In this document: one piece after another, positions 5,855-25,800 of the stretch
Numbering within the stretch: the first letter of the stretch is position 1
How the letters are laid out: every line of letters begins with the position of its first letter
DNA from: Pachyseris speciosa
Taxonomy: Eukaryota > Cnidaria > Anthozoa > Scleractinia > Pachyseridae
DNA length: 64,000 nt
Assembly (NCBI GenBank): GCA_016490735.1
Contig: JAEMWC010000359.1
Location: 317,501-381,500 of the forward strand
Reading direction: 5' to 3'
Notes under the pieces: model-generated
What the model saw: only the letters and a program-made list of their open reading frames with translations
Told to the model about the DNA's origin: nothing
Database searches by the model: none
Program-made: the position numbers and the translations under genes

Positions 5855-7218
5855 TTAGGAAGGAAGTAGACGTTTAGGGAAGGACGTAGCGGGAAACGCG
5901 GTGACGAAATTCTTTAAGTCATTAAAATCAAGATAAACCCGCGAGGCTTCTCGAGACTGAGGCAAGTAGGAATCTGAAGCAAGCAGGTCACAGGGGGCCC
6001 CAGCCCGGAGGACATCGGCTAGCTTAAGGTAATATAACGCAGTTTTTGAGTTCATCCAACCAACATGCGAGATAACATCTGCCAGCGGAGAGCCCGACAG
6101 GGCTAAGGTGACAGCGCAGCCTGAACGAAAACTATGAAGGGTTTCGCCATTGTCAATATGGGCATCCCGCAGATACTTTCTAAGGCGGGATTCGGCCGTA
6201 GAGCCTAAAAGTGGTTTGTCGACGATGTGGCCCTGTGGATTAGTGGCACGAAATAAATGGCCACTGGAGAGACTAATTCCCAATTCTTGAGCGATTGCTA
6301 CATAAGTCTCAATACCTTTAATAGGGCATAAAGTGGGATTAGGATGACGGCGCATTCCAAAAATATTGGAGGCGCCATCCCTAAGAGTCTTTCCCCATAT
6401 GTGATTGAACAAAAATCCATTATCATCTGGGAAGCGAGCGATTTCAGGCGTTTTGACTTGCCCTAGGTCACCTCCTCTATCTCCGGAGAAGAACAGGGTC
6501 TTGAAGAATGCTTGATCTTTAGCCGTAATAAAAATGTCGGTCGGCGTGAGAGAAGTGAGGAGAAGACGCTTTTCAAGATGACGTGAGAGTAAGAGTAGCT
6601 TGTCCAGGAAAATGGGAGAGGCTTGCTTGGGAGCTACCCGAGCCTGAAGTTGTTCAGTGGTAACCTCCTTTAGATACTGCTTGACCAGAAGATCAGTAGC
6701 CGGATTACCGAGCAAAAGAGTTCGGTTCCAGTCTCCTTGGCGTCCCACCTCGGAAAAGATAGAACGTAGCTTCCCAATATAGGAATCCACCGTGGAATAC
6801 GCAAGACGCAAAGGACATTGACAAAGGGATGTGCCCCGTTGACCAAGATAAGGGCATCCGGACTTATGAACTTGCGTCTTACCCTTGAGATCCTTAAACA
6901 CCAGGAACCGACAAACATCCAAGGGGTAGCATCGAAAAGGCTTTTTTGGCCTGGCAAAGCAAAAAGGAAGCTTTCTAGTTCCATCTTTAACGACTGCTTC
7001 TGCTTGGAATAGGCTGTTGACAAGTGACTTGATTGGAGGAAGTTAATACGGTCGTCAATAGCAGAGAGGTTAAAGGTAACGGGCGTCGGGGCCAGATTGT
7101 GCACACGTCGCCTGGAATAACCACAATTCTGGCAAAAACGGAAGGTATGATCGTTGGCATAATGGCAAGTTGGGCATGACACGGCAGGAACAAATAAGCG
7201 AGGGACAGGGGGAAGGCC
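5855..7218 (-). pseudogene. Tyrosine recombinase with N-terminal zinc ribbon (one frameshift)
   Basis: Integration enzyme of the YR retrotransposon. The frame opens directly after a splice-acceptor-like TTAG at 7220-7219. It first encodes a zinc ribbon (SCPTCHYAND with FCQNCG) and a helical region. Near 6910-6925 the reading shifts by one base into the catalytic frame, which runs to the stop at 5855. Catalytic landmarks are the first Arg in GDRGGDLGQ, the H-x-x-R box LHSFRSG, then SHVGW and the nucleophile Tyr in ALYYLK. There is no in-frame ATG before the zinc ribbon, so an internal start would lose it. Splicing from the leader exon at 12066-12200 would supply one, as both junctions are phase 0. 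The single frameshift makes this copy probably inactive. Confidence 0.85.
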
Positions 7219-7237
7219 CTAAGGAGAAAGTAAGAAT
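7219..7237 (-). promoter_or_regulatory. Candidate splice acceptor for the recombinase exon
   Basis: The minus strand reads CTTACTTTCTCCTTAG and then GGC. A pyrimidine-rich tract followed by AG stands exactly where the zinc-ribbon frame begins, in phase 0. Inferred from sequence only. Confidence 0.6.
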
Positions 7238-7399
7238 GATAAATAGTTGAATAAGCGAGAACTCATTTTATTAGATAACAAAATAGACGTCTACTTCGCT
7301 GCATACAGAATTCTATTTTATTGTTGTTGTTGTAGCTAATCACAGGAGATGGGTTAACAATGTTGTAAGAACGCTGCAAAAGAAGTTCACGAAACTATT

Positions 7400-9663
7400 T
7401 CATGGCAAAACTATGCGAAAAACCCATAAGTCCCAGGGAAGGGGCCAGGAAGAAGAAAAACCATGGGAAGAGGGAGAACAAACTATATCCGGTGTTCCTC
7501 GAGGTGCCAATAGGAAAGAGGGAAATGATTGAAGTAGAGGCCACCAAAATTTACGAGGCCGAACGTCAGGAACAACAAGAGAGCAAGTAATAGACTGGGT
7601 TTTAGCAAAGCGCAAAACTTGAGGAATGAGTACAATGGGAGGGAAAATGTAAGGGTTAGAAAACAGGTGACCATGACTAGCCTGAAGCTGAACAAAAACA
7701 TTGACCCCAGAACAACCAGGAGTTGGGTATGGAGAAAAGAAAGGAAGTGGGGAGCCATCCAAAGAGCATTGTACATTGGACGGCAAAGCCATCAAATCTG
7801 CAGAGTGACCAAGCCGGCCCCCAAACTTCACCTGAACCTGCGACCAGGCAGACGGAGATAACTTGGCATCCTGCAGAGACAAAACTCGCGAAGGGGGTCC
7901 GCAGGATTAAGGGGAGAGGGAATATAACAAAGGTTGAGATGAATATTAGTTCTACTGACAACCCAAAACAGCTTCTTAAGAGCGTTAGAGAGGGCATGTG
8001 ACTTTGCACCCTGAGACTGCCAAGACCTAATGAGAACTTGGCTATCAGTAAATACGTCTACCCAGCTGTCACGGAAAGATAAGGCCTCTAGAGCATTGAC
8101 AAGGGCTAATGTCTCCTTGACATTTATGTGAAGACCGCGTTGATCCGCAGGCCAGTAATCGCGTATCATGGCGTCATGGGCGTTGGGACCAAGGGTGCAC
8201 GCCCAAGCGAAGGAAGAAGCATCAGAAAATAATTTAACTTGATGATGAAGCTCTTGGCGCCAAGGGAGGTAAGCAGTCCAAGATTCAAGGAACAACCAAT
8301 GTTGAATTTTGTCTTTTAAAGACCCTGAAACAGAAATTGGACGAGAAGAGCGGAGACCTTTTGCAATAGCAATGTTGAGCTCATTAATGAAGAGGCGAGT
8401 TCCCGGGACCGCAAGGGCAAAAGACATGTACTTCCCAGATAAACGCTGAAGGGTTTTGACGTCCGTGGAGCTACAGCTAAGAACATGGCGGGTGAGAGAG
8501 AGACACTTTTGCTTCTTTTCCTGGATAAGCAAAAAGGCCTGACGAACCGAATCTACCAAAAAGCCAAGGTAAGGGACAACCTGCCTAGGGGTGAGGATGG
8601 ATTTTTTAAGGCCAAGAAAGTATCCCAGACTAATGAGGGTATGACAAACTATAAAAATTGCGGATGATGCCCGAGCAAGGGATTTCTCCCGTTGCGAGGA
8701 GAGTGGGGCATAAGCTGGGGCCTTGATGGATAGCTGGATTTCCCCTGTGTGGCGATCATCGATGTACAACGAGCAAGGTATAAGAACAGAACGAAAGTAA
8801 TGAGAGGCGAGAAGCCCAATAGAATGGTAGATGTATGCCGAGGATTTCCAGCCGAAGGGTAGAGTATTACTAGTAAAAAACCATCCACCCCATTGAAAAC
8901 CAAAATAGGTACGACTCTCTGGGCAAAGCAAGACATGATCGTACCCGGATTTGTCATCACACACTGACTGGAAAGAAGAAGGGGTAACATAACGTGGCAG
9001 ACTAGAAAGAGAATCCAACTTAAAGGGTGTGTCCTTGATCCATAAATTAAGAAAGCGATTATCATTGCACAGACGCGGCTTTGTCTCTTCCACTGTTAAG
9101 GGTAAAACCAGATAAGGAGGGTCAACGTGACCCACTTTTCCCCAAAGGGAGATTGCCCCGGATGCTAGGCGAGCGATAATAGTGTCCGAGATAAACTTAG
9201 AGAAGGGCTTACAAGAGATGGCATTAGGAAAGGTCTTACGCGGGGGAAAACCAGAGTCAAAGTTTTCCCCCTTATATTGGCCCTTGAAGGGTCGAAAAAA
9301 TTCGTGTATGTCAACACAGTTTTTGATCCAATGCAAAATCTTGTGAGTGAGTTCGAATGGAGCACACTTGGAGATACGTTCCCAGGCAGGAAAGCAATTG
9401 TGGAGATAACCTGCGACAAAGGTTTCCGGATCTCGAAACGCGAGCATAGAAGGGTCTCCAAGGGCATGGCCATCAAGAACTGCTTCCACAAATTCCATAG
9501 AGACATGACAATTGTTATCTGTCATCCCCTGAGCCATCCCAAGAGGTGAGTTATCAAACTTGACCCAACGTACCGAAGGTCTGGGTACACTTTCTGGGTT
9601 AAAACCAGAAGTAACTTCCCATTCCGGAAAGGTATAGGCGAGCTTAAAGCGCTTGGCAGGGGA
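7400..9663 (-). pseudogene. Reverse transcriptase / RNase H of the YR retrotransposon (one frameshift)
   Basis: Copies the element's RNA and removes the template strand. The frame is open from 9663, right after TTTTAG, through a segment starting SPAKRFKLAYTFPEWEV that precedes the first ATG (9537). RT motifs include GKVGHVDPPYLV, the palm TLPFGWKSSAYIYHSIG and the active site YIDDR. RNase H follows, with LFSDASSFAW, the Glu in VKETLALV and FTDSQVLI, and then NPADP. At about 7885-7900 the frame slips by one base and continues as LSLQDAKLSP, with PFFSPYPTPG and VVPDVRPRKFWWPLL, the conserved C-terminal extension in these elements, to a stop at 7400. The size and domain order are normal, and the frameshift is the only obvious lesion. 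Confidence 0.88.
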
Positions 9664-9682
9664 CTAAAAGAAAAGAAAAAGT
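9664..9682 (-). promoter_or_regulatory. Candidate splice acceptor for the RT exon
   Basis: The minus strand reads TTTTTCTTTTCTTTTAG and then TCC. The tract is almost pure pyrimidine, and the RT frame is open in phase 0 from the next base, 42 codons upstream of the first ATG. This supports a spliced rather than an ATG-initiated RT message. Confidence 0.65.
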
Positions 9683-9883
9683 GAAAAAATTAAGGGAGGA
9701 GATGGCTCAAGGGATGACAGCTTCGAGCCTCAGTAATCCGAGAGGGAATTAGACTCCCTTTCAAAACTGTCATCCTAGAGCGGGGCGCAAATAGGGAGAG
9801 ATAAAGAAAAATTAATGGACTCTAGGACAATATAATTTTATTAACCAGGAAATTTAGAGGGAGATACAAGAAATAAGAGAGGT
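9664..9883 (-). other. Spacer between gag and RT
   Basis: 220 bp without coding sequence, probably intronic in an RT transcript. The + strand at 9701-9720 repeats in inverted orientation the text around the RT ATG (9519-9538), with one mismatch in 20. A second short inverted piece, CTGTCATCC, lies near 9769. Confidence 0.5.
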
Positions 9884-10420
9884 CTACTTATTAACGCCAC
9901 GAACCCGCCTAGAATACGGGGTGTAGCGGTTTACAAATTGGCTACGACGAAAACATCTATTAGCAAAGTGGCCAGGGATGCCACAATAGAAACATACGAG
10001 ACGCTGGGGCCTGGAGAACCCTCTACCAGAAGAACCAGGCAGATTCTGATTAACGGCGGGAACTCGTTGAGTGGGTTCTGAACGAAGCGACTTGTCCACC
10101 TTCGAGATGCGGTCTAAAACCTGCGTATACTCTTTATCGGCAAACAGAGCAATAAAGTAAGCTTGAAATACTCTATCCGACTTGTGAAGGTGACTTCTTA
10201 ACGTCTGAGAGGCAACGGCAAGGAACGACGCTTTTGAATGGTTGACTTGCTTCACCTGCGAGGCCAATGATTCAGCCAGGGACAGTGCAGTGTACTTGTC
10301 GAAATCGGCTACGTTTCTATGGCCGTACGTGGATAGACGGGTTATTTGGCCCTCAACATTACCCTTCTGTTGGCTTTCGAGAAGCTCAATACGTTTTCTT
10401 AGCTGCTGGATAGTATCAGT
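9884..10420 (-). CDS. Gag exon 2: coiled coil and CCHC zinc knuckle
   Basis: Structural protein of the YR retrotransposon. From the acceptor at 10421-10423 the frame reads TDTIQQLRKRIELLESQ, a short amphipathic coiled-coil segment. It continues through a helical region (about residues 40-120 of the exon) to one zinc knuckle, CFYCGIPGHFANRC (C-x2-C-x4-H-x4-C), and a basic tail ending at 9884. The 178 codons contain no methionine, so this cannot be an ATG-initiated gene. It must receive its start by splicing, and the exon at 12066-12200 fits in phase 0. No frameshift or stop is present. Length and zinc knuckle are usual for Gag of this element type. Confidence 0.85.
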   Translation of the reverse strand, partial: TDTIQQLRKRIELLESQQKGNVEGQITRLSTYGHRNVADFDKYTALSLAESLASQVKQVNHSKASFLAVASQTLRSHLHKSDRVFQAYFIALFADKEYTQVLDRISKVDKSLRSEPTQRVPAVNQNLPGSSGRGFSRPQRLVCFYCGIPGHFANRCFRRSQFVNRYTPYSRRVRGVNK

Positions 10421-10440
10421 CTGGCACAAATAAAGAACAA
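10421..10440 (-). promoter_or_regulatory. Candidate splice acceptor for gag exon 2
   Basis: The minus strand reads TTTGTTCTTTATTTGTGCCAG and then ACT, a good polypyrimidine tract with a CAG. The gag frame continues in phase 0. Confidence 0.7.
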
Positions 10441-10969
10441 AGGAATGTAAATAAATGGATTTATATGCAACGAAAAGACATTGAATTCACTGAAAGCGCT
10501 CAAATTTTATAAGTGTGAATCTGGAGATAGGCGTCAAAGAGGGCGCAGAGAAACATTTGCATTGCATAAGACACAAACAGTATCCAGAAAGCAAAGAAGA
10601 AGAACATGTAAGTAAAATGATATGAACAAACTTGAGCGCGATCGGTGAGGAGAAAGCAGAAGATACAATACTTAAGACGGAAGATATTCTAACATCGAAA
10701 ATGGAGTAAAAAATAATACAACATTTTAGCGGGAAAAACAAGCGAAACTGCAAGGTAAATAGTAATATGAAGTCTCATACCGAGAAATAAACAAAATAAA
10801 CAAAAACAGGAAATAATCGTATTTCCAGCCAAAAACATGAATGCACAAATCAGATATCTGGTGCTGTGCCCGAAGACATCTACAAACCGATATCGGTAAA
10901 AGAGGCACGAAATAATAAAACATCAGGAGTAAGAAAAAAAATATGAATCCAATCGGATAAATTAACGCT

Positions 10970-15287: not shown

Positions 15288-15316
15288 GTGTCTACTGCGC
15301 ATGCACAGGTGGACAC
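15288..15316 (+). repeat. Helentron 5' terminus with hairpin
   Basis: GTGTCTAC (15288-15295) pairs with GTGGACAC (15309-15316) with one G-U pair. The first ten bases GTGTCTACTG are inverted at 25852-25861 with one change. Confidence 0.65.
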
Positions 15317-16411
15317 TAAGACGGAAAAAAAGTTTGTTAACCTGTCGATATGCAATCGCTAATCAATAAGTGATCTGTGATTCCGAGGAGGGTCGGTCAA
15401 GCCAATTCCGACCAATCACGTGTGAAATCGCAACGAGCGATCGACGTTTGCTAATCCGTGTTGCCAAGGATTCGGTCAGGCGTTTAATTTCGAACAATCA
15501 CAAGCGAAATCGCACGAAGGACATTACGTGCGTTAGAGTGTGATTTCACCAAGGTCTATTTCGTACGTGTTTTCTACAGGGTCTTCACTGTCTCACATCG
15601 GAGTGGTTGGTTTTCCGGTAAGTTTTGTTCTCTAAACTTCTGCTCTAAGCTGAAGGAACAACTCTTGAACATTCTGGATTGATACTTGTTTTACGGGCCG
15701 TTGGAAATCGTTGCAAAATGACTCTCCTTCGCGCTGCACCAATGATGGTTTGTGCAGTTCCTCGCGTTTGGCGAAAGTGTCAAAATCGAAATCTTTGCTT
15801 GTTGTTTGCAAAATTCGACCCACTTTGGTCACAAAGTCAGCCTGAACTATCACGGTTACAATATCAGAATACTAAAATGAGCGAACTATCACGGTTACAA
15901 GATCAGAATACTAAAATGAGCTTTCCATTCAAGCGATTCACCACGTGCATGTGTACCTTTCCAGAATTAGGTCTACATTGTGCTTTCTCCAGCTTGAGCA
16001 GAACTTTGAAACTTGGCTTACTGTCAAATTTATCATGGTTAAGTAAGTCACTTTACAATTTATTTTTGTATAAAAATCTTATCCAGTCCTTGGGAAGTTG
16101 GGCTCAAAATGTGGTTGTTCTACGTAGTGTTAAAGTGAAATCTTGTTCAGTTATGGAATTGCAATTAATGGTGAGCTTATGCACCGATATGTTTCGTTTG
16201 TCTCAGAGCAGCTTGTTTTCAAACAATTTATTTTCAAGGCAACATCTATACTATCAGTCTCTTGTGTACTTTCGGGTTGTGGGAAATCATGCTTAACGTG
16301 TGAAATATTTAGATCGAGTCGATGTAAATATCGATTGCAGAACAACAGTAAGAAGCAAGGAAAGATACTACCAAGTTCGTAAATCCAGGGACAGGGAACC
16401 TTCTAGGATTA
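15317..16411 (+). other. 5' region of the Helentron, coding status unclear
   Basis: No recognisable domain. A 205-codon open frame on + (15679-16296) and a charged peptide on minus (15632-15853, QTTSKDFDFDTFAKREELHK) overlap, and I cannot tell whether either is real. The minus peptide has the more protein-like composition. Confidence 0.3.
15844..15921 (+). repeat. Two tandem 39-bp units
   Basis: GAACTATCACGGTTACAA followed by ATCAGAATACTAAAATGAGC occurs twice at a 39-bp step, in the 5' region of the Helentron. Confidence 0.8.
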
Positions 16412-17638
16412 ATGAAAGGAAAGTTCATCAAAAAAAGAACCGGTAGAAAAAGAATGAAATTAGCTCTACGAAATTTCACTCCCCCATCATCTAGATTAAC
16501 AAGCATAGCAGTTCATTACAAAATGTGGTATGTGATACACCATTGTAGAAATGACTCTTTCTTCAGTTCGTTTTTTTGCAGAGGCCTCAAAAAACACAAG
16601 ATCCAGTCACTTAGAACTTCAGACAATAAACTCTTCGATGACAAAAAAATTCAAAACACTTCATCTGATCACACTTGTTACCAGGCATGTAGGATTTTAA
16701 ACTTGCATCTTACTTTTTCACCAAATGAAATAAATAATTATTGTTTCTCTACAGAAAATAATGTACATGTCAAATCAAATTCTAGACATCTTGGACGGTG
16801 TAAATATTTTTGTGCTGCAAGGAGAAAACTCTTATTGTCCAGTGATATTGAGTTGAATCCAGGACCTTCAGAATATCTTGTATTAATTCAGAGATTAAGC
16901 AATCTTTGCTTAAGGCCGCTAGATGTTGGTGGTGATGGAGATTGTTTCTTTAAAGCGGTTTTACATCAATTATTTGGAACTCCAAATTCTCATATTGCTA
17001 TTAGACATGCTGGGATTCAATATCTGAGAAATTCCCCTGAACAGTTTATTGAGAGCAATGTTGCAAACTCCTGGTTAGAATATTTGAACAGGATGTCTAG
17101 ACAGGGAACATGGTGCGATGGTTTAATAGTGCAAGCTGTTGCAAACTCGCTCTATATAAGAATATATATCACAGAATCGCATAATAATTTTACTGAGAGG
17201 ACAATTATTGAACCTGCAGTGTGCCTACAGGGAGAGTCAAGGATAATATACTTAGGCCATGTCAATGAAATTCACTATGTCTCTACAGTTCCAGATGTTT
17301 CAGTAATTTTTAGAACAACAACAGCAAATACATGTAGTTCTAGGACACATGCGGTTAACAATAACATAGGTAAGAGTACGTCCGCCAGTGATAAGAAAAA
17401 CCCTTACATGCGAACATATATGGCAAAAAGGAGAGCTAATGAAGATTCTGAGTGCAAGCAAGAAAGGCTAAGAAAACAACGTAGATATATGCACAGCAGC
17501 GAGCTGCACAGAAAAAATGTGCAGAGGAGCAACCCACACAATCTAAAAATGAAACACAACAGACAGTTCCTGACAACAACCACAGAGAAGAAAGACTTGA
17601 TGAGAATCAGCAATATCAAAAGTCTATGGAAAATTTAA
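16412..17638 (+). pseudogene. Helentron polyprotein N-terminus: basic leader, 2A-like motif, OTU cysteine protease
   Basis: The frame starts MKGKFIKKRTGRKRMK, very basic, with about 150 residues of no known domain. It then shows LLLSSDIELNPGP (16829-16867), which matches the 2A consensus D-[VI]-E-x-N-P-G-P. Such motifs make the ribosome skip the Gly-Pro bond and release the upstream peptide. The OTU domain follows, with catalytic Asp-Cys in GGDGDCFFKAV (Cys near 16943), TWCDGLIVQAVA and the catalytic His in NEIHYVS (near 17270). OTU proteases cut ubiquitin-like linkages and are known passengers of cnidarian Helentrons. A shift near 17490-17510 moves the true reading into another frame (HREERLDENQQYQKSMENL), which joins the next segment, so the last 40 codons here are not native. 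Confidence 0.85.
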
Positions 17639-17904
17639 TATCCAAGTTCCACTCCTTTGTTTCAAGTGGTCCTTTATATATTTGTAGTTGCTGTGATCAA
17701 TTATGGTACAAACACAGTGTTACTCTTGCAAGCCAACTGAGATTATCTAATGCAACTGTAGCAAAATACCTATTGAATAAAAAGAGTGTAGAAAACAAAG
17801 AATGGTTATGCAACACTTGCATGAAGTATTAAAAAAAGAATAAGGTTCCCCCATTGGCTGCTGTTAATGGAATGCAGTTTCCAGTAAAACTAGAATGTTT
17901 TGAC
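17626..17904 (+). pseudogene. Helentron polyprotein, zinc-binding segment before Rep
   Basis: Reads MENLISKFHSFVSSGPLYIC and then SCCDQLWYKHSV, followed by WLCNTCMKY, giving two Cys pairs that could bind zinc. This is usual just N-terminal to the Rep domain of Helitrons. A stop follows TCMKY at 17830, then PPLAAVNGMQFP continues in a nearby frame up to FDL, where the piggyBac-like MITE is inserted. The rest resumes at 18847. Confidence 0.75.
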
Positions 17905-18850
17905 TTAACCCATTGGCACCCGTGCCGGCCAAAACCGGCCGTAAAAAACTCCCATGCTTCAAAACATTGCAACTTTCTCAATCGCACGAATATTGCCTTA
18001 ACTGTTAGTTGTGAGCACGAAATGGAATGCCCTTTAAATTTGGATATCCAATAAATGTAAGAAACGTAGCGATTTTTACCAAATATGGCCTTTTGAGTTT
18101 GGAAAAGAACGAAACTGGCCGTTTTTAACGTCAAAGAGAAACAGCAAAAATGCCCCTTTTAGCCTTCATGTTTTTTAGGGAAATCACCATAACGAAATTC
18201 AGTCCTTTTTCTAGCTTAGAAATGACTTTTTTTGTTCATATTCTTCTCCCGAGCGTAGATACAGCCTTTTGTTCCAGTGCATTTTCAACATCTTGAGCGC
18301 ATTGCATGCTGGGAACTAACGAGAATTTTTGACAGCGCCCGTTCCTTCCCCCAATTCTTTCACACAGCCACTCCGACCTACCGCCCAAATTTCCTGCTCG
18401 TGGTCATCTTCAGTACACAGAAATTCCAAAATATGTGGCGGTAGGTCGAGAAATTCATAGTCAAAGTGTTCGACCGGCCAAATTCCCAGTTCGTCGAGTA
18501 ACAAGCCAAATTCAACAACAAAGTACATCACCTTGCTCGATTCTTTGAGAAAGTGGACTCTTAGCTACCGTCACGCTTAATGATGCTCATCAGGCAGCCG
18601 CTAAAGATGAAAAATGGCTGTAAATTTAGCAGAAATCGCAAGCAAACCGAACTTGGGCCATTGTTGTCCCTTCACGGATAAAAAATAGCTACGTCAAAAT
18701 GACGTTTTCAGAAACCTTGAGCCTCCAGTGGCTTAGGACAGCACCACTTTTCCCTGGTAGTTCAAATAAAGAGTCACGAATTGCTATTGATCGTTTATAG
18801 GTGGAAAATCACTCCGAAAATGTAAAAACCTCCGGTAGTCAATGGGTTAA
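17905..18850. mobile_element. piggyBac-like MITE, 938 bp, with TTAA target duplication
   Basis: The element itself is 17909-18846, flanked by TTAA on both sides. Ends are CCCATTGGCACC and AGTCAATGGG. Excising it and one TTAA restores the Helentron codons FDL-NEL across the site, so insertion happened when the host frame was already there. No transposase is encoded, and the short frames inside are not convincing. TTAA duplication with CCC/GGG ends is the piggyBac signature. Confidence 0.88.
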
Positions 18851-19568
18851 ACGAGTTAGAATAGAGATTACTTGCTCCAAGGTTAGCATTTCAAAAAGTA
18901 ATGCAAGCTCCAAGAGGAAAGCAATTGAAAATAACAGGCAATGTAGTAAATGTACCAGCAGATGTCAGCAGCACTGTGAACTTGTTAGCCAGGTTAGGAA
19001 ATGAAACTGGAACAATTAAAGTGAAGCTAAAGAGAAGATTATAGTACAAAAGTTCTGCATTTTCTTTAAATGTGAGGCCACATCAAGTAATTCAGGCTGC
19101 AAGCTGGCTTACGGAAAACAGTGATCTTTATAAAGAAGAAGGAATAATTGTCAACAGAGATTGGCAATCATGTTTTATAGATAATGGTCCATGAAGTGAG
19201 CGGGATGAGCCTGAAAATCAATCTTCAAAGGATCATGACGATATCATTACAGAAAATTTTGAAAATGATGCTCATGAAAAATAATTATCATGTAATGAAA
19301 ATAGTCATAATAATAACTGGATTGAGGATGACGATGAAATACCAGCAGGAGTTACTGACACCATGTTAACAGCTCCAGATTTCCTAGATGATACTGAATG
19401 AGAGAATATTCTTAATGTTGCACCAGCTGAAGGTTCCACCCCCTGAGCATATTTAGGGACAAACATTCTGAGGAATTAGCATACCCTGGTATATTTTTAG
19501 GTAAAAAACAAACCGAAAATGATAAAAGACTTGTACCAGCTCACTACAGTGATATATGTAAGTCTGTA
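18851..19568 (+). pseudogene. Helentron polyprotein, decayed N-terminal part of Rep region
   Basis: Conceptual reading after the MITE gives NELE, stop, RLLAPRLAFQKVMQ, then APRGKQLKITGNVVNVPAD, followed by TGTIKVKLKRRL, stop, YKSSAFSLNVRPHQVIQAAS and NSDLYKEEGIIVNRDWQS. This is the conserved block preceding the HUH domain in Helitrons, interrupted by several stops (first at 18862-18864) and frame changes before the next long frame. It is clearly homologous but non-functional. Confidence 0.75.
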
Positions 19569-20910
19569 TTGAGACGTTCAGATCGAAGGGCAGCAATGTC
19601 CGTTGAAAATATCTTCTTCAAAGCAAAAAAGTTACAAATGAAGATACTTTTAGGGAAATCACAAATTGCAATGCGAAAATGTACAGGTGTCAGCAAAAGT
19701 CTTACTGCGGGTCATTTGAAACAACAAGGAGCTTTGGAAAGACTAGTTCATCTTGATGAAGGAGTTAAATTTTTAAGAGCATTGCGAGGGTCTCCTCCTT
19801 ATTTTGAATGTGCTAAAAAATATCTCTTTGCAATGATAATACAGTTAGGCCCAGCAACACTGTTTTGTAGTTTTTCTGCAGCTGAAACGCATTGGATACA
19901 CCTTTTAAGGATTCTTGGTAAACTAGTGGATGGAAAAGAATACTCTGATAATGAACTTGAAAATTTAAATTGGGAACAGAAGTGTAGATTATTTCAAATT
20001 GATCCAGTAACATGTGCAAGACATTTTGATTATCAGTTCAATCAGTTTCTAAACAATTTTCTCTTGAGTAATATTGCACCATTAGGCTCCATTTCTGATT
20101 GGTTTTATAGAGTAGAATACCAGCAGAGAGGTTCACCTCATATTCACATGTTGATATGGATAACAGATACACCAATATTTGGAACTGATGATGACGAAAA
20201 AGTCATCTCCTACATTGATAGAATTATTTCTTGCAGTAAACCTACTGGAAATGTGGACCTACTCAACTTAGTTAACAGACAGATCCACAGACATTCACAT
20301 TCTTGCAGAAAAAGAAATAAGGATGAATGTAGATTTGACTATCCACAACCTCCCATGAATTCAACAAAAATCTTATATCCTCTTGATAAAGACACTCAGC
20401 CGCATGCAGTTAAGTATTATAGAGAAATCTGAACACGTATAAAAAAAAGAAATGAATGACCTTAAAGAAGGTAAAAATATTAGTTTTGATGAGCTTCTTT
20501 GTAATTTAAATGTAACTGAAGAGGATTATAAACTTGCATTGCGTTCATCTCTTAGTTCTCCAACTGTATTCTTAAAGAGGGAACCAAGTGAGTTAAGAAT
20601 TAACAACTACAATGCATCATGTCTGAGTGCATGGAGAGCTAACATGGACATACAATTTATCCTTGATGTTTATGCTTGTGTTGTGTACATTGTATCCTAT
20701 ATATCAAAGGCTCAAAAGGGGATAAGTCAGCTACTTAGAAAAGCATGCGATGAAGCAAAGAGAGGAAATTCAAACATAAAGCAACAAGTTAGAGATCTTG
20801 GTAACAAATTTCTTAAGAGTGTAGAAATATCAACTCAAGAAGCAGTAAATAAATGTTTATTTAGTACTTCAACTTCCCATGAAAAAATCATCTCGACAAG
20901 TAATCTTTAA
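19569..20910 (+). pseudogene. Helentron Rep (HUH endonuclease) domain, frameshifted
   Basis: Rolling-circle initiator that nicks one strand and becomes linked to its 5' end. The Helitron-like N-terminal block precedes the metal-binding H-x-H motif SPHIHML (His codons at 20139 and 20145). After a TGA and a one-base slip in an A-run at about 20430-20450 the frame goes on with MNDLKEGKNISFDELLCNL. It reaches the two catalytic tyrosines in VYIVSYISKAQKG (20686 and 20698, Lys at 20707). A further slip near 20870 leads into the helicase frame. All catalytic residues are preserved despite the lesions, so decay appears recent. Confidence 0.88.
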
Positions 20911-23127
20911 ACACACTGCACCTCCTGAGGAAAGAGTTGAACTTTTAAAACCTTTGAATGAAATTGAAAAGATGGAGGATGATTGTGAAGAAATACACAC
21001 AGGAGGCCTTCTAAAAAGATACACTGAACGACCTCATACACTTGACAGTGTAACTTTGGTAGATTGGGCAGCATGGTATGATGTATGTCATAAACCTAAT
21101 GAAAAGAAAATATGTAAACATGACACTGATAATCTATCACAGGAAAATTTGATTGATGACAAGAATAGTGATGATGAATTTGATTTTGATAATCACATTG
21201 CAAATATCATAAATAATACAGAAACTACTCCATACAAGAAACGATCAAAAGCAAGTATTATCAGAAGTGTTTGGTTCAACAAAGAAGCACACCCAGAAAA
21301 ACATTATCGTGAATTTATTATACTTTTCACCTCATGGAGAAATGAACAAATTGACTTGATTGGAAATTACTCCACCTTTGAAGAACGTTTCTTCCATTTA
21401 AAAGATCAAATATCTACACAAATGAGCCAGTATGCAATTTTCGCTGAACAACTGGATGAAATTCACGAAAATTTAAATGAAATAAATGAAGAACACTTTG
21501 ACTCAATAGCTCCAGACACACAACACACTGAACTCCAAGACGAAACTGAAGGTGCAAATGACTTGCATTGCGATTTCAATGAAACTTATGATTTATCAGA
21601 GGATATTGGAATCCCCCCAGCCTTGATAGCAAGTAATGACTCTCTTGTATTAAACGAAGTCGAAGATCAAGAATACAGAAACATGGTGCAGATGTTGAAT
21701 AAAGGACAAAAAGAGTTTTTTGATCATATTTTACACCTCATTAAAACCTCAAACAAACCATTTTACTCCTTTTTAAGTGGAGGTGCTGGTGTTGGCAAGT
21801 CTCAAGTTGCTAAAGCATTATATCAAGCAGCCCTGAAATATTATTATACTAATGCAGGAGAAGATTTCCAAGAAGTGAGAGTATTACTGTTAGCACCCAC
21901 TGGAAAAGCAGCTTACAATATCAAAGGAAATACAATACATAGTGCCTTTGGAATACCAGCCAATCAGTCTCTAAGAATGTATAAGCATCTCGATTCAAGT
22001 AGACTTAATAGTCTAAGATGTAAACTTGGAAAAGTTAAACTGATATTTGTGGATGAAACTTCCATGGTGGGTAGCTGCATGTTCAATGTGCAAATAAACA
22101 GTAGACTAAAAGATATAAAAGGCAGTAAACAAGATTTTGGAGGTGTCAGCATCATTGCTATTGGTGATTTATTTCAACTGCAGCCTGTTATGGATGGCTA
22201 TATCTTTAAGGATGTGGACAATTCAGAATAATTTATGGTGTACTTGCAACAAACTTATGGCAAAAACATTTTAAAATGTATGAACTTCATGAAGTCATGA
22301 GGCAAAGAGAAAGCAAACTCTTTGCAGAAATTTTGAACAGGTTGAGAGAAGGCAATCACACACAAGATGATATTTTAAAAATAAAAGAAAGACTCATTCA
22401 ACAAAATATCCCTACTTATCCATCTGATGCACCTCACTTGTTTATACAGAATGCTAAAGTAAACGACTTCAATGAACGTGTTCATAATGCTTCCACCAAT
22501 ATGAAATACAATATCAAAGCACAGGATAGTGTTGGTGCAAATTCATCAGAACTGACATAAAAGATTCTTAATCAGATTTCAAACGATCCTCGCAAAACTA
22601 AACAGCTTTTTTCAAATCTCAGACTGAGTGAAGGAGAAAGAGTAGAAATCGCCATAAATATACGAACAGAAGATGGCATTACGAATAGTGCAGCTGCAGT
22701 TATTAAATCTATTCGGCTATATCACAAAGAAAAACCAACTGGAGTTATATGGGTGCAATTTGACCATAACAATGTGGGCGAGAAAACAAGGTATGAAAAT
22801 AGGCAGTTAAATACACCAACAATTGGCCTCACTTGGACTCCAATAAAACCTGTAACTGTTCATTTTAATGTTGGCAGAACCAAAGCTGCTCAAGTAGTTC
22901 GAAAACAATTTCCCTTGCGTCCAGCAGCTGCAAAAACCATACACAGGTCACAAGGAGATACAGAGACAAGAATTGTGGTAAATTTTAGTGCGAAGAAGGC
23001 AATACCTCATATACATTATGTAGGACTCAGCAGGGTAACAACTCTCGAGGGATTATATGTTACTGACCTCACTGAAAACAAAATTACAGTAAGTTCTAAT
23101 GTTAAGGCTGAAATGCAACGACTGTGA
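20879..23127 (+). pseudogene. Helentron helicase (PIF1-like, superfamily 1B), disrupted
   Basis: Unwinds DNA during rolling-circle transposition and is fused to Rep. After a linker (20879-21660) come Walker A GGAGVGKSQ (near 21780), LLAPTGKAAY, Walker B FVDETSMVG (near 22046) and AIGDLFQLQPV. A frameshift near 22228 moves the reading into MYELHEVMRQRESKLFAE. A TAA at 22558 breaks the next part, which then gives AAAKTIHRSQGDT and HYVGLSRVTTLEGLYV, motifs V and VI. The frame stops with TGA at 23125, where a Trp codon would read on into the endonuclease. The length and motif order are complete. Confidence 0.88.
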
Positions 23128-23829
23128 ACACAAGGAACCCTTGACCTTTCCATTTCTCCCCTTTACAAAATCAGTAAGTCTCTGTTCAAAATCTGTTTTC
23201 TCAACGCACGATCCCTTCATAAACACATTGAAGATGTACGCCAAGACCACAATTTCAAAAATGCAGATTTGCTAATCTTTGCAGAAACTAGGTTTTCCTC
23301 ACTTGACAGTGATAGCATGTATGATATGGAAGGATTCACTTTGTTTAGAAATGATAACCACAATTTAAATGTAAGGCCCTATGGTGGTACTGCAATTTAC
23401 AGTCAGCATTCCTTTGTTTCTAGCTTTCCTCTAAAATGTAATATTAATGGGATTGAGATAACCACTGTGAGACTATCCACCCTGCTAAACGTAACAGTTA
23501 CAGCAATCTACCTTTCACCAAAAATCTCTGTAAGACTTCTGTGTTCCTCGCTTATCGAGATATTACAAAATATGTCATTCCAATTCAGAGTTATCATTGG
23601 AGATTTTAACGTCAACTGGATGAATGAAGTAGAAAGAAGGCCTCTTTACAATCTGTTTACACAACTAAATTACAAACAACTCATTTCACAGTATACAACT
23701 GACAACAAAACAATCATTGACCATATATATACAAACATCCCTGATTTTTATATTTCTTCAGGAATCTTGGAAACATATTTTACTGATCACAAGGCCATTT
23801 GGTTGTCCCTTCCATTTCAAATTAATTGA
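23128..23829 (+). pseudogene. Helentron APE-type endonuclease domain
   Basis: Lies in the same frame as the helicase C-terminus, separated only by the TGA at 23125. Landmarks are FLNARSLHKHI, LLIFAETRF (catalytic Glu), VIIGDFNVNW (Asp/Asn pair), TIIDHIYTN and FTDHKAIWLSL (Asp-His). This apurinic-like fold is related to the nucleases of LINE retrotransposons, and its fusion to the Rep-helicase C-terminus separates Helentrons from canonical Helitrons. It ends at a TGA in 23827-23829. Confidence 0.85.
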
Positions 23830-24133
23830 TTCACATTTCCTTTCAATCCAAAACTCAACTTGGAAATTTGTTTCTAGGTCAGTATTTATACATCACTACA
23901 AAACTAATTTAATCAAACCTACATACAAAATGTTCCTAAATCTAGTGATGCAAATTATTCCACAACTCTGTGAGCTAAAATAACAAGTGTTTATTACATG
24001 TGCTGTAGATTAATTTTGTACTATTAATATTTTTAACTTACCTATGTACAGTTAGGTAAGTATTTTGTCTTTATTTCTTATTGAAACTATTTCCATTCTA
24101 CAATATTAACATCTCTCTCATTTCTTTCTAGCC
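23830..24133 (+). other. Spacer between endonuclease and RPA-like gene
   Basis: AT-rich, without coding sequence. A TTTCTTTCTAG tract lies just before the ATG at 24134 and could be an acceptor or a coincidence. Confidence 0.4.
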
Positions 24134-25203
24134 ATGACAACAAATCACAAGCGCAAAGAAAGTGACACTGGCTTCATTCATGATGTAACGTTGATGCAAA
24201 AATCAAAGAAAGGAAGAAATTACTACAACCTCACATTACAAACTTCACCTACTAAATACAAAAGAGTAGTTGGTTTTGACCATAAATCCCATCAGATTGC
24301 AAAACACATGCAAACCACAGGTAGCCCGACTAAGATACTTGGTACAAGAGAGGAAAATGAACAACTGTTCATTAATCAAGGAACAACAATTCTAGAGGCA
24401 AATTAATCTGACATAGACTTCCCTAGCCAGAAACCAACAGCTGTCACTGACTGGAAGTCAAATGATCAAGTATCAGACATAACACTCGACCAAATCAAAA
24501 GTTAAACTAGAAACCAACGTGTGAATGTAAAAGGTGTAGTAACACTTGGAGAGTTGCCACCAAAAGAAGTAGAGAAAAGAAACGGAGAAATTGGCCATGT
24601 CAAAGAGGACTGTGTGATTGAAGATGGCAAAGGAACTTCAACTATACACATATGGGATGACCTTATAAAAACACTCAAGAATGGCAAAAGCTACTATGTT
24701 AAAAACCTCAGCGTCAAAAATTACTCGGGTAACACATTGTTAGGCACAACTCCCAGCATTTTATTTGAAGATGGAGATGCCACAATTTCCCTGGACAAAG
24801 TCAAAGGATCAAAACTTCTGGCCAATGCAGAGAAAAACGTCTCTGTGACTGAATTCAAATTCGTTGATAAGCTAAACATATACTTTATCTGCCAAATAAA
24901 AACATGTAACAAAAAAAATGCCACATATGCCGGGAAAAAAACGTTGTGCAGTGTCCACATTGTGGTGCTTCACAGAAACTAAAGAATGCAACAAAGAATA
25001 TCACTGTAAGACTCTGTGCTGACTTAAATGGACAAGAGGTTTGGTTTACAGCTTTTACAGACACAATTGAAGCATTTTTAAGCAAGAAGAACTTAACTAA
25101 AGCTGCTAAGTCAGATGAAATCAGTGAAGCTCTTCTAGATCTTGAAGACATCAACTTCACATATGACTCTACATCAAACTTCATCACTAAAGTTGCAGAG
25201 TGA
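24134..25203 (+). pseudogene. RPA-like single-stranded DNA-binding protein of the Helentron
   Basis: Starts MTTNHKRKESDTGFIHDVTL. The first segment (to 24404) includes NYYNLTLQTSPTKYKRVV, an OB-fold strand pattern. Two in-frame stops (24404 and about 24503) precede the second segment with VKGVVTLGELPP and GTSTIHIWDDLIKTLKNGKS, a second OB fold. A slip in an A-run near 24910-24945 leads to VVQCPHCGASQKL and VRLCADLNGQEVWFTAF, the zinc-ribbon OB fold as in the RPA1 C-terminus. Helitrons often carry RPA-like genes that may protect the displaced strand. This copy is broken. Confidence 0.78.
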
Positions 25204-25225: not shown

Positions 25226-25800
25226 CCAAAAACTTTCTAGTTGTTGATGTTGGTAATTACACCAATGAACAGACACTATTGTTCTGTTGTTGTTATTGTA
25301 AAACAAATTTATTTCTTCTTTACCATAATTTTATTATTTAACAGTTTAGATGTTCCAGTTCCTTGACAAAATCAAAGGACCAGATTTATTTTAGGATAAA
25401 ATGAATCAACACAAAACACATTTCCAAACCTTTTCTAGTTGTTGATGTTGCTAATTATGCCACTGAACAAAGACACTATTGTTCTGTTGTTGTTATTGTA
25501 AAAGACATTTCTTTCTTCCTTACCATAAATATATTATTTAACAGTTTAGATGTTCCAGTTCATTGACAAAATCAAAGGACCTAATTTATTTTAAGATAAA
25601 ATGAATCAACACAAAACACATTTCCAAACCTTTTCTAGTTGTTGATGTTGCTAATTATGCCACTGAACAAGGACACTATTGTTCTGTTGTTGTTATTGTA
25701 AAACACATTTATTTCTCCCTTACGTGTATTATTAAACAATTTACTTTGCTCATAGAAGATGTTGCAGTTCCTTGACAAAGTCAAAGGACCAAATTTACTT
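25226..25800 (+). repeat. Subterminal tandem repeat of the Helentron (about 197 bp, nearly 3 copies)
   Basis: Units start CTTTCTAGTTGTTGATGTT or similar near 25231, 25432 and 25632 and include GGACACTATTGTTCTG and TGTTGTTATTGTAAAA. The last unit is diverged and runs into the 3' terminus. Subterminal tandem arrays are common in Helentron families. Confidence 0.85.

Follow-up and report, generated by a model that had tools for sequence, protein, structure and literature searches.

Conservation of a 2A-like (StopGo) motif just ahead of the deubiquitinase in Helentron transposons

Introduction

RNA viruses and some retrotransposons use recoding of the 2A or StopGo type. In a stretch of 64,000 nucleotides from the coral Pachyseris speciosa (contig JAEMWC010000359.1, positions 317,501 to 381,500 of the forward strand; this whole stretch is called the window and all coordinates below refer to it), a 2A-like octapeptide is encoded directly ahead of an OTU cysteine-protease domain in a damaged Helentron, a rolling-circle DNA transposon. 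The question raised by this locus is whether such a motif serves the transposon as a ribosome-skipping site. In the current study we conclude that Helentrons conserve a 2A-like motif immediately before the deubiquitinase and, with considerable confidence, that ribosomes are likely to release a leader at ...NPG and to resume at the proline of the deubiquitinase-Rep-helicase-endonuclease chain.

Helentrons with OTU and VTD domains have been described, the available text of these reports giving a deubiquitinase together with Rep, helicase and AP endonuclease, with OTU and VTD present together or as alternatives (PMC4067079, PMC9741609). The occurrence of 2A in non-LTR (long terminal repeat) retrotransposons and sea-urchin NLRs is reported in the accessible part of a further paper (PMC4981915).

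Results

On the + strand, positions 16820-16867 encode RRKLLLSSDIELNPGP within a stop-to-stop frame (16352-17638) of 428 residues. The core octapeptide DIELNPGP (16844-16867, +) agrees with the (D/G/C/N)(V/I)ExNPGP pattern and is in frame with the OTU domain, which Pfam places downstream at residues 194-282 of that frame (E 3.9e-10), and the predicted skip point, the Gly-Pro junction of the core, falls between 16864 and 16865. An earlier note, made from the letters of this DNA, had read DIExNPGP as a complete 2A consensus lying in a Helentron just upstream of an OTU domain. Both statements hold, as DIELNPGP is the sole NPGP and the sole [DGCN][VI]ExNPGP in a six-frame scan of the 64 kb, the Pfam OTU match follows it, and the motif occupies the same place in many divergent relatives. 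A chance match was ruled out: none of 300 first-order Markov simulations produced the full motif (NPGP by itself arose 0.41 times per simulation), and a degenerate DNA pattern of the motif gave 385 matches in the 984-Mb assembly, many of them in copies of the same transposons, whereas the reversed pattern gave none.

The window element is a Helentron because a Helitron-type Rep, a PIF1 helicase and an AP-type endonuclease lie downstream; the HUH-type Rep and the helicase were recognised as PF14214 and PF05970 in open reading frames (ORFs) of the window, and the endonuclease, C-terminal to the helicase, as PF03372 above its cut-off (Table 1). The OTU domain, assigned by sequence comparison (PF02338), has GDC and HY stretches that align to OTUD5. 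We take these stretches to be the sites of the catalytic Cys and His.

Conservation was assessed in several protein and locus sets. Because the query for the first homolog set (85 proteins) itself contained the motif, the motif share of that set is biased; a second set of 10 proteins came from an OTU-only query. Together they hold the canonical motif in 66 of 95 proteins (8 of 10 for the OTU-only query alone), the 29 others lacking the OTU start (6), having fewer than 35 upstream residues (7), differing by one residue (4) or giving no good match (12). The case for conservation therefore rests on two other sets, each obtained with a query that lacks the motif. For the first, proteins were ordered by their resemblance to the DUF6570-Rep stretch of the Helentron protein P0093, and 120 listed of 710 were scored. 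The motif stood ahead of the deubiquitinase in 34 of 40 proteins with OTU and in 11 of 28 with VTD (a herpes-tegument-like deubiquitinase, PF04843, unrelated to OTU), and in none of the 52 with neither domain (Fisher p 3.8e-16, the relatives not being independent). Of these 52, 30 still have 250 residues or more before the DUF6570-Rep region. Each of the 45 motif-bearing proteins has one motif, none at the helicase-endonuclease junction. On a Rep tree built by a quick method, with long-branch warnings, the deubiquitinase and 2A labels were clustered and needed 23 and 24 changes, respectively; rows without a deubiquitinase inside deubiquitinase clades may be truncated proteins, and no history of gain and loss was drawn.

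Within the genome of the window, an OTU query devoid of the motif gave 129 matches. The best 30 loci include the window and some near-copies; the motif is intact and in frame in 20 of them, differs by one residue in five and by two in one. The proviso of the earlier note that the motif might be missing or mutated in all related elements is answered for the family in favour of the note by both the Rep-ranked and the own-genome counts, and so is the proviso that the upstream frame might not be shared with OTU: it is shared in P0087, P0092 and P0093, and in the sister copy L070 up to part of the OTU domain. Among the first 69 of the 385 pattern matches, 68 places were classified, 45 of them ahead of a LINE-type (long interspersed nuclear element) AP endonuclease, called by the endonuclease alone, 14 in OTU Helentrons (12 recognised by an OTU match, the other two being L042 and L061, which are shortened members of the window family), five in VTD Helentrons and four unassigned. 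The endonuclease beside the L042 motif is the Helentron's own.

A codon-by-codon comparison took one locus from each of ten OTU families among the best 30 loci of this genome; L085, L092, L095, L096 and L098, whose motif was unalignable or badly broken, were omitted together with extra copies of families. The seven motif codons without x have a synonymous divergence (pS) of 0.75 and a non-synonymous divergence (pN) of 0.038, the OTU domain having 0.73 and 0.30, and 0 of 128 seven-codon OTU windows have a pN as low as the motif. Omission of the variable x favours the motif, and with x included the result is weaker, pN rising to 0.083 with 1 of 127 eight-codon OTU windows as low. No amino-acid change occurs at six of eight motif codons, compared with 26 of 134 OTU columns. 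The synonymous sites of the motif are saturated and its amino acids hardly change between the ten families, hence the amino acids are constrained. Alignments of OTU proteins chosen as motif carriers gave a similar picture, the motif staying fixed while the linkers on either side of it differ greatly in length (24 proteins) and its D, E, N, P, G and P making up six of the 14 invariant columns among 1091 (22 proteins). In P0027 and P0029 a PHD finger stands between the NPGP motif and the OTU domain, perhaps a module inserted at the junction.

The residues ahead of the core bear on predicted activity. In the L-rich upstream classes of 2A, (A/S/C)G immediately precedes the core, and one motif-6 sequence showed activity in lysate, according to the available part of the source (PMC12846837). 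The context is KLLLSS in the window copy and KLLLSG in sister copies; position p11 is Ser in the window copy and L073, and Gly in L074, L075, L079 (the same place as L025/L070), L042 and L061. Among the 45 Helentron sites of the Rep-ranked set, 32 have Gly at p11, 12 have Asn and one has Ser. The family context, as read from sequence, appears to fit the L-rich classes ending in (A/S/C)G.

Upstream of the motif lies a long basic leader, which in the window is split between frames: in tblastn with the L070 leader, frame 1 matches to approximately 16425 and frame 2 from approximately 16421. L070 lies on another contig and is 95.2% identical to window 15301-17908 and 97.1% to 18847-25117. It encodes leader, motif and the first part of OTU in one frame of 517 residues, with 397 residues from the first Met to the motif Gly, followed by a frame of 1924 residues with DUF6570, Rep, PIF1 and an endonuclease just below the cut-off. 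In P0087, whose first residue is matched by the window Met at 15916, 318 residues precede the core, and leader, motif and deubiquitinase are unbroken in one frame. Long proteins with all these parts in a single frame also exist, namely P0093 (2409 residues: leader, core at 397, OTU, DUF6570, Rep, PIF1 and an endonuclease match below the Pfam cut-off) and P0092 (2329 residues: an 84-residue leader, then 2A-deubiquitinase-DUF6570-Rep-PIF1-endonuclease, the endonuclease above the cut-off). The earlier note had proposed a basic N-terminal peptide of about 150 residues. Its basic character stands, and its length does not: the frame from the internal Met at 16412 runs through the motif into OTU, this Met lies downstream of the damage described below, and the short leader is an artefact of the frameshift. 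The released leader would be basic and about 320-400 residues long.

Among the 94 motif-bearing proteins with a leader of at least 50 residues, 46, P0087 included, carry the REPSR core, in leaders of 106-404 residues with a median pI of 10.3; other leaders are shorter and some are hydrophobic. An AlphaFold model of P0076, made to examine the leader and built on 22 alignment rows, has a mean pLDDT of 53.5 and is confident only at about residues 141-180, which are helical, and fold searches yielded no usable hit for the leader.

The earlier note had tied the motif to the OTU domain. That association is sound and is not exclusive, as the motif also precedes VTD in other Helentrons. In the genome of the window it stands ahead of VTD in L057, L021 and L032 by Pfam, and in L005 and L038 by similarity only (L038 without a Pfam match); in L069, a longer stretch of L057, DUF6570, Rep and PIF1 follow in further frames, and the leaders of L057 and L021 share the REPSR...P.SS core with OTU leaders. 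The distance from the post-skip Pro to the VTD Cys motif is 29-33 residues in 9 of 11 measurable cases, and in 2A-less VTD Helentrons the stretch between the first Met and that Cys motif is 25-32 residues in 10 of 16 measurable (of 17). The skip site thus lies where the 2A-less VTD proteins begin. As the first Met of such a protein is the choice of a gene caller, this is a hint, the best non-experimental pointer available, that a free deubiquitinase N-terminus may be selected.

Two VTD Helentron proteins, P0187 (58-residue leader) and P0163 (59), have their most hydrophobic stretch abutting the 2A core, and are candidates for dual targeting by signal peptide and 2A.

The window copy itself is damaged: compared with L070 it bears an extra 0.95-kb insert, and ahead of the motif its leader is interrupted by a stop (16294-16296) and by a frameshift at about 16.42 kb; L070 has an empty site where the window carries the insert. 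The insert is presumably a piggyBac-type miniature inverted-repeat transposable element. The window copy cannot make the full product pair because stop and frameshift cut off the start and the frame ends at 17638, which corrects the two products of the earlier note as far as this copy is concerned. The copy is broken, in a family that has better-preserved ones, and probably makes neither product in full.

Table 1. Positions of the Helentron features in the window, with the evidence for each
Feature	Position	Strand	Evidence
2A-like (StopGo) site RRKLLLSSDIELNPGP	16820-16867, core 16844-16867	+	frame translation, simulations, conservation, codon test
OTU cysteine-protease domain	16931-17197	+	PF02338 E 3.9e-10; PDB 3tmo/OTUD5 E 2e-5
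Leader part 1, frame 1, from first Met	15718-16296	+	L070 leader tblastn, 91% identity; ends at stop 16294-16296
Leader remainder, frames 1 and 2, basic REPSR...KRK...P.SS core	16297-16843	+	tblastn; core seen in relatives
Rep part, Helitron_like_N	19431-20432	+	PF14214 E 2.9e-23
PIF1-type helicase, several frames	20849-23127	+	PF05970 E 6.3e-21 in ORF 20849-22231; two next ORFs weak matches
AP-type endonuclease, Helentron hallmark	23128-23829	+	PF03372 E 7.7e-6, 26.3 bits against cut-off 24.5
Inserted element after OTU, about 0.95 kb	17905-18850	+	TTAA at both ends; 18-nt terminal inverted repeats, 83% complementary

Other features were noted in and around the element. The ORF at 24506-24982 and its likely counterpart in L070 gave no RPA match. 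A 200-bp tandem repeat (25234-25723; 2.5 copies, 93% matches) follows the Helentron genes; in oyster, satellite-like repeats are borne by Helentrons, as stated in the accessible text of PMC7492417. L042 is a deletion derivative of the window family in which a match to window 15634-16926 is directly joined to one to 23181-24321, so that leader and 2A are kept and OTU through helicase is lost. Elsewhere in the window, 5855-10486 (-) holds a zinc-knuckle ORF, a weak reverse-transcriptase match and an ORF matching Pfam ALOG (E 5.9e-22), the last also with a phage integrase match below the cut-off; this region appears to be a DIRS-like retroelement.

Discussion

OTU Helentrons and some of the VTD type have a conserved 2A-like site before the deubiquitinase, as judged by comparison of relatives, and ribosome skipping at it is likely. 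In the mechanism we propose, the ribosome would release an N-terminal leader ending in ...NPG and translation would go on from the Pro to give the deubiquitinase-Rep-helicase-endonuclease protein; the basic leader may act alone, perhaps in nucleic-acid binding or nuclear entry, and selection may act for a free deubiquitinase N-terminus. A broader proposal, which we favour with some reserve, is that StopGo is a modular Helentron junction immediately before the deubiquitinase. It would take the place of the start codon of that domain whatever leader (long and basic, or short and hydrophobic) and whatever deubiquitinase fold (OTU or VTD) an element has, so that one message would yield the leader and a deubiquitinase-RepHel transposase; no earlier StopGo would then be known in a DNA transposon, and this one would be shared by two deubiquitinase types and many families.

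Several observations weigh against this interpretation. Cores of the D type strongly prefer Gly at p11 in the available part of the viral survey (PMC12846837), and the window copy has Ser there; the predicted activity of the window site is less sure than that of the family, five other copies of which have Gly. The canonical motif is absent from 17 of 28 VTD and 6 of 40 OTU proteins of the Rep-ranked set (three of the six OTU cases start with a Met after the motif place, two are one residue off and one has no motif). The best 30 own-genome OTU loci include three with no recognisable motif and one with a remnant in a broken frame, and the Helentron protein P0095 has two OTU stretches and lacks the 2A motif. 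All 2A-bearing Helentron proteins with a named species come from one coral, Oculina patagonica, and the codon test was limited to families with an alignable motif.

Other readings of the motif have been weighed. One that seems unlikely to us is that the 2A belongs to a dual-targeting leader as in sea-urchin NLRs, where skipping would be partial and the unskipped chain would be led elsewhere by a hydrophobic leader. Such targeting has a working precedent in the accessible text of PMC4981915, and P0187 and P0163 have short hydrophobic leaders just ahead of 2A with peak 19-residue hydropathies of 2.48 and 1.95, but 46 of 94 leaders are of the basic REPSR-core type, P0087 among them, and the window stretch peaks at only 0.26. 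It is very improbable that leader and deubiquitinase stay fused, or that the OTU protease cuts between them, with NPGP kept as a protein-level motif: the conserved residues are those of StopGo and the upstream class appears to match as well, and the motif is not an OTU-specific cut site because elements with a different deubiquitinase fold keep it.

The same genome contains many AP-endonuclease LINEs with 2A, and the motif could be a functionless leftover of capture from one of them, as the 45 of 68 sampled places ahead of a LINE-type endonuclease, called by the endonuclease alone, might suggest. This we regard as the most improbable of the alternatives, given that the amino acids of the motif are constrained where its synonymous sites are saturated, that it sits at the edge of two unrelated deubiquitinases and that each of the 45 proteins has one motif and none at the helicase-endonuclease junction. 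Ribosome skipping at the deubiquitinase edge is the reading that we prefer.

Odon et al. 2013 reportedly described 2A-like sequences in APE-type non-LTR retrotransposons, and Heras et al. 2006 are said to have described that of L1Tc. These elements resemble the Helentrons in having the same octapeptide, transposon-borne, between a leader and an enzyme domain; their 2A precedes an AP endonuclease, whereas Helentrons are rolling-circle DNA transposons with 2A ahead of a deubiquitinase. Viral StopGo sequences with the L-rich upstream motifs 2 and 6 are alike in the D(V/I)ExNPGP core and the preceding LLLLSG-like hexamer but, in the available part of that survey, sit in virus polyproteins, and Helentron sites carry Asn at p11 in 12 of 45 cases (PMC12846837). 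The 2A signal sequences of sea-urchin NLRs likewise lie towards the N-terminus, with a hydrophobic leader like those of P0187 and P0163, but belong, in the text available, to host genes and not to transposons (PMC4981915), and the leader of the window family is long and basic. The accessible text of the reports on OTU and VTD Helentrons makes no mention of a leader or a recoding site ahead of the deubiquitinase (PMC4067079, PMC9741609). Among the papers covered by our literature search, many of them judged by title and opening of the abstract, none describes a 2A-like site in Helitrons or Helentrons; the survey of eukaryotic 2A by Rao et al. 2025 and Odon et al. 2013 were outside its coverage, and an earlier mention is possible.

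If rolling-circle DNA transposons have a conserved site of this kind, StopGo would be extended to another class of mobile element, and the site would show how a Helentron could obtain more than one protein from one message. It would point to a conserved leader protein that is absent from the available text of the Helentron papers (PMC4067079, PMC9741609), and it offers many natural StopGo variants, with Gly, Asn or Ser at p11, for side-by-side measurement. The junction may also hint at why it could matter to a transposon that the N-terminus of its deubiquitinase is free.
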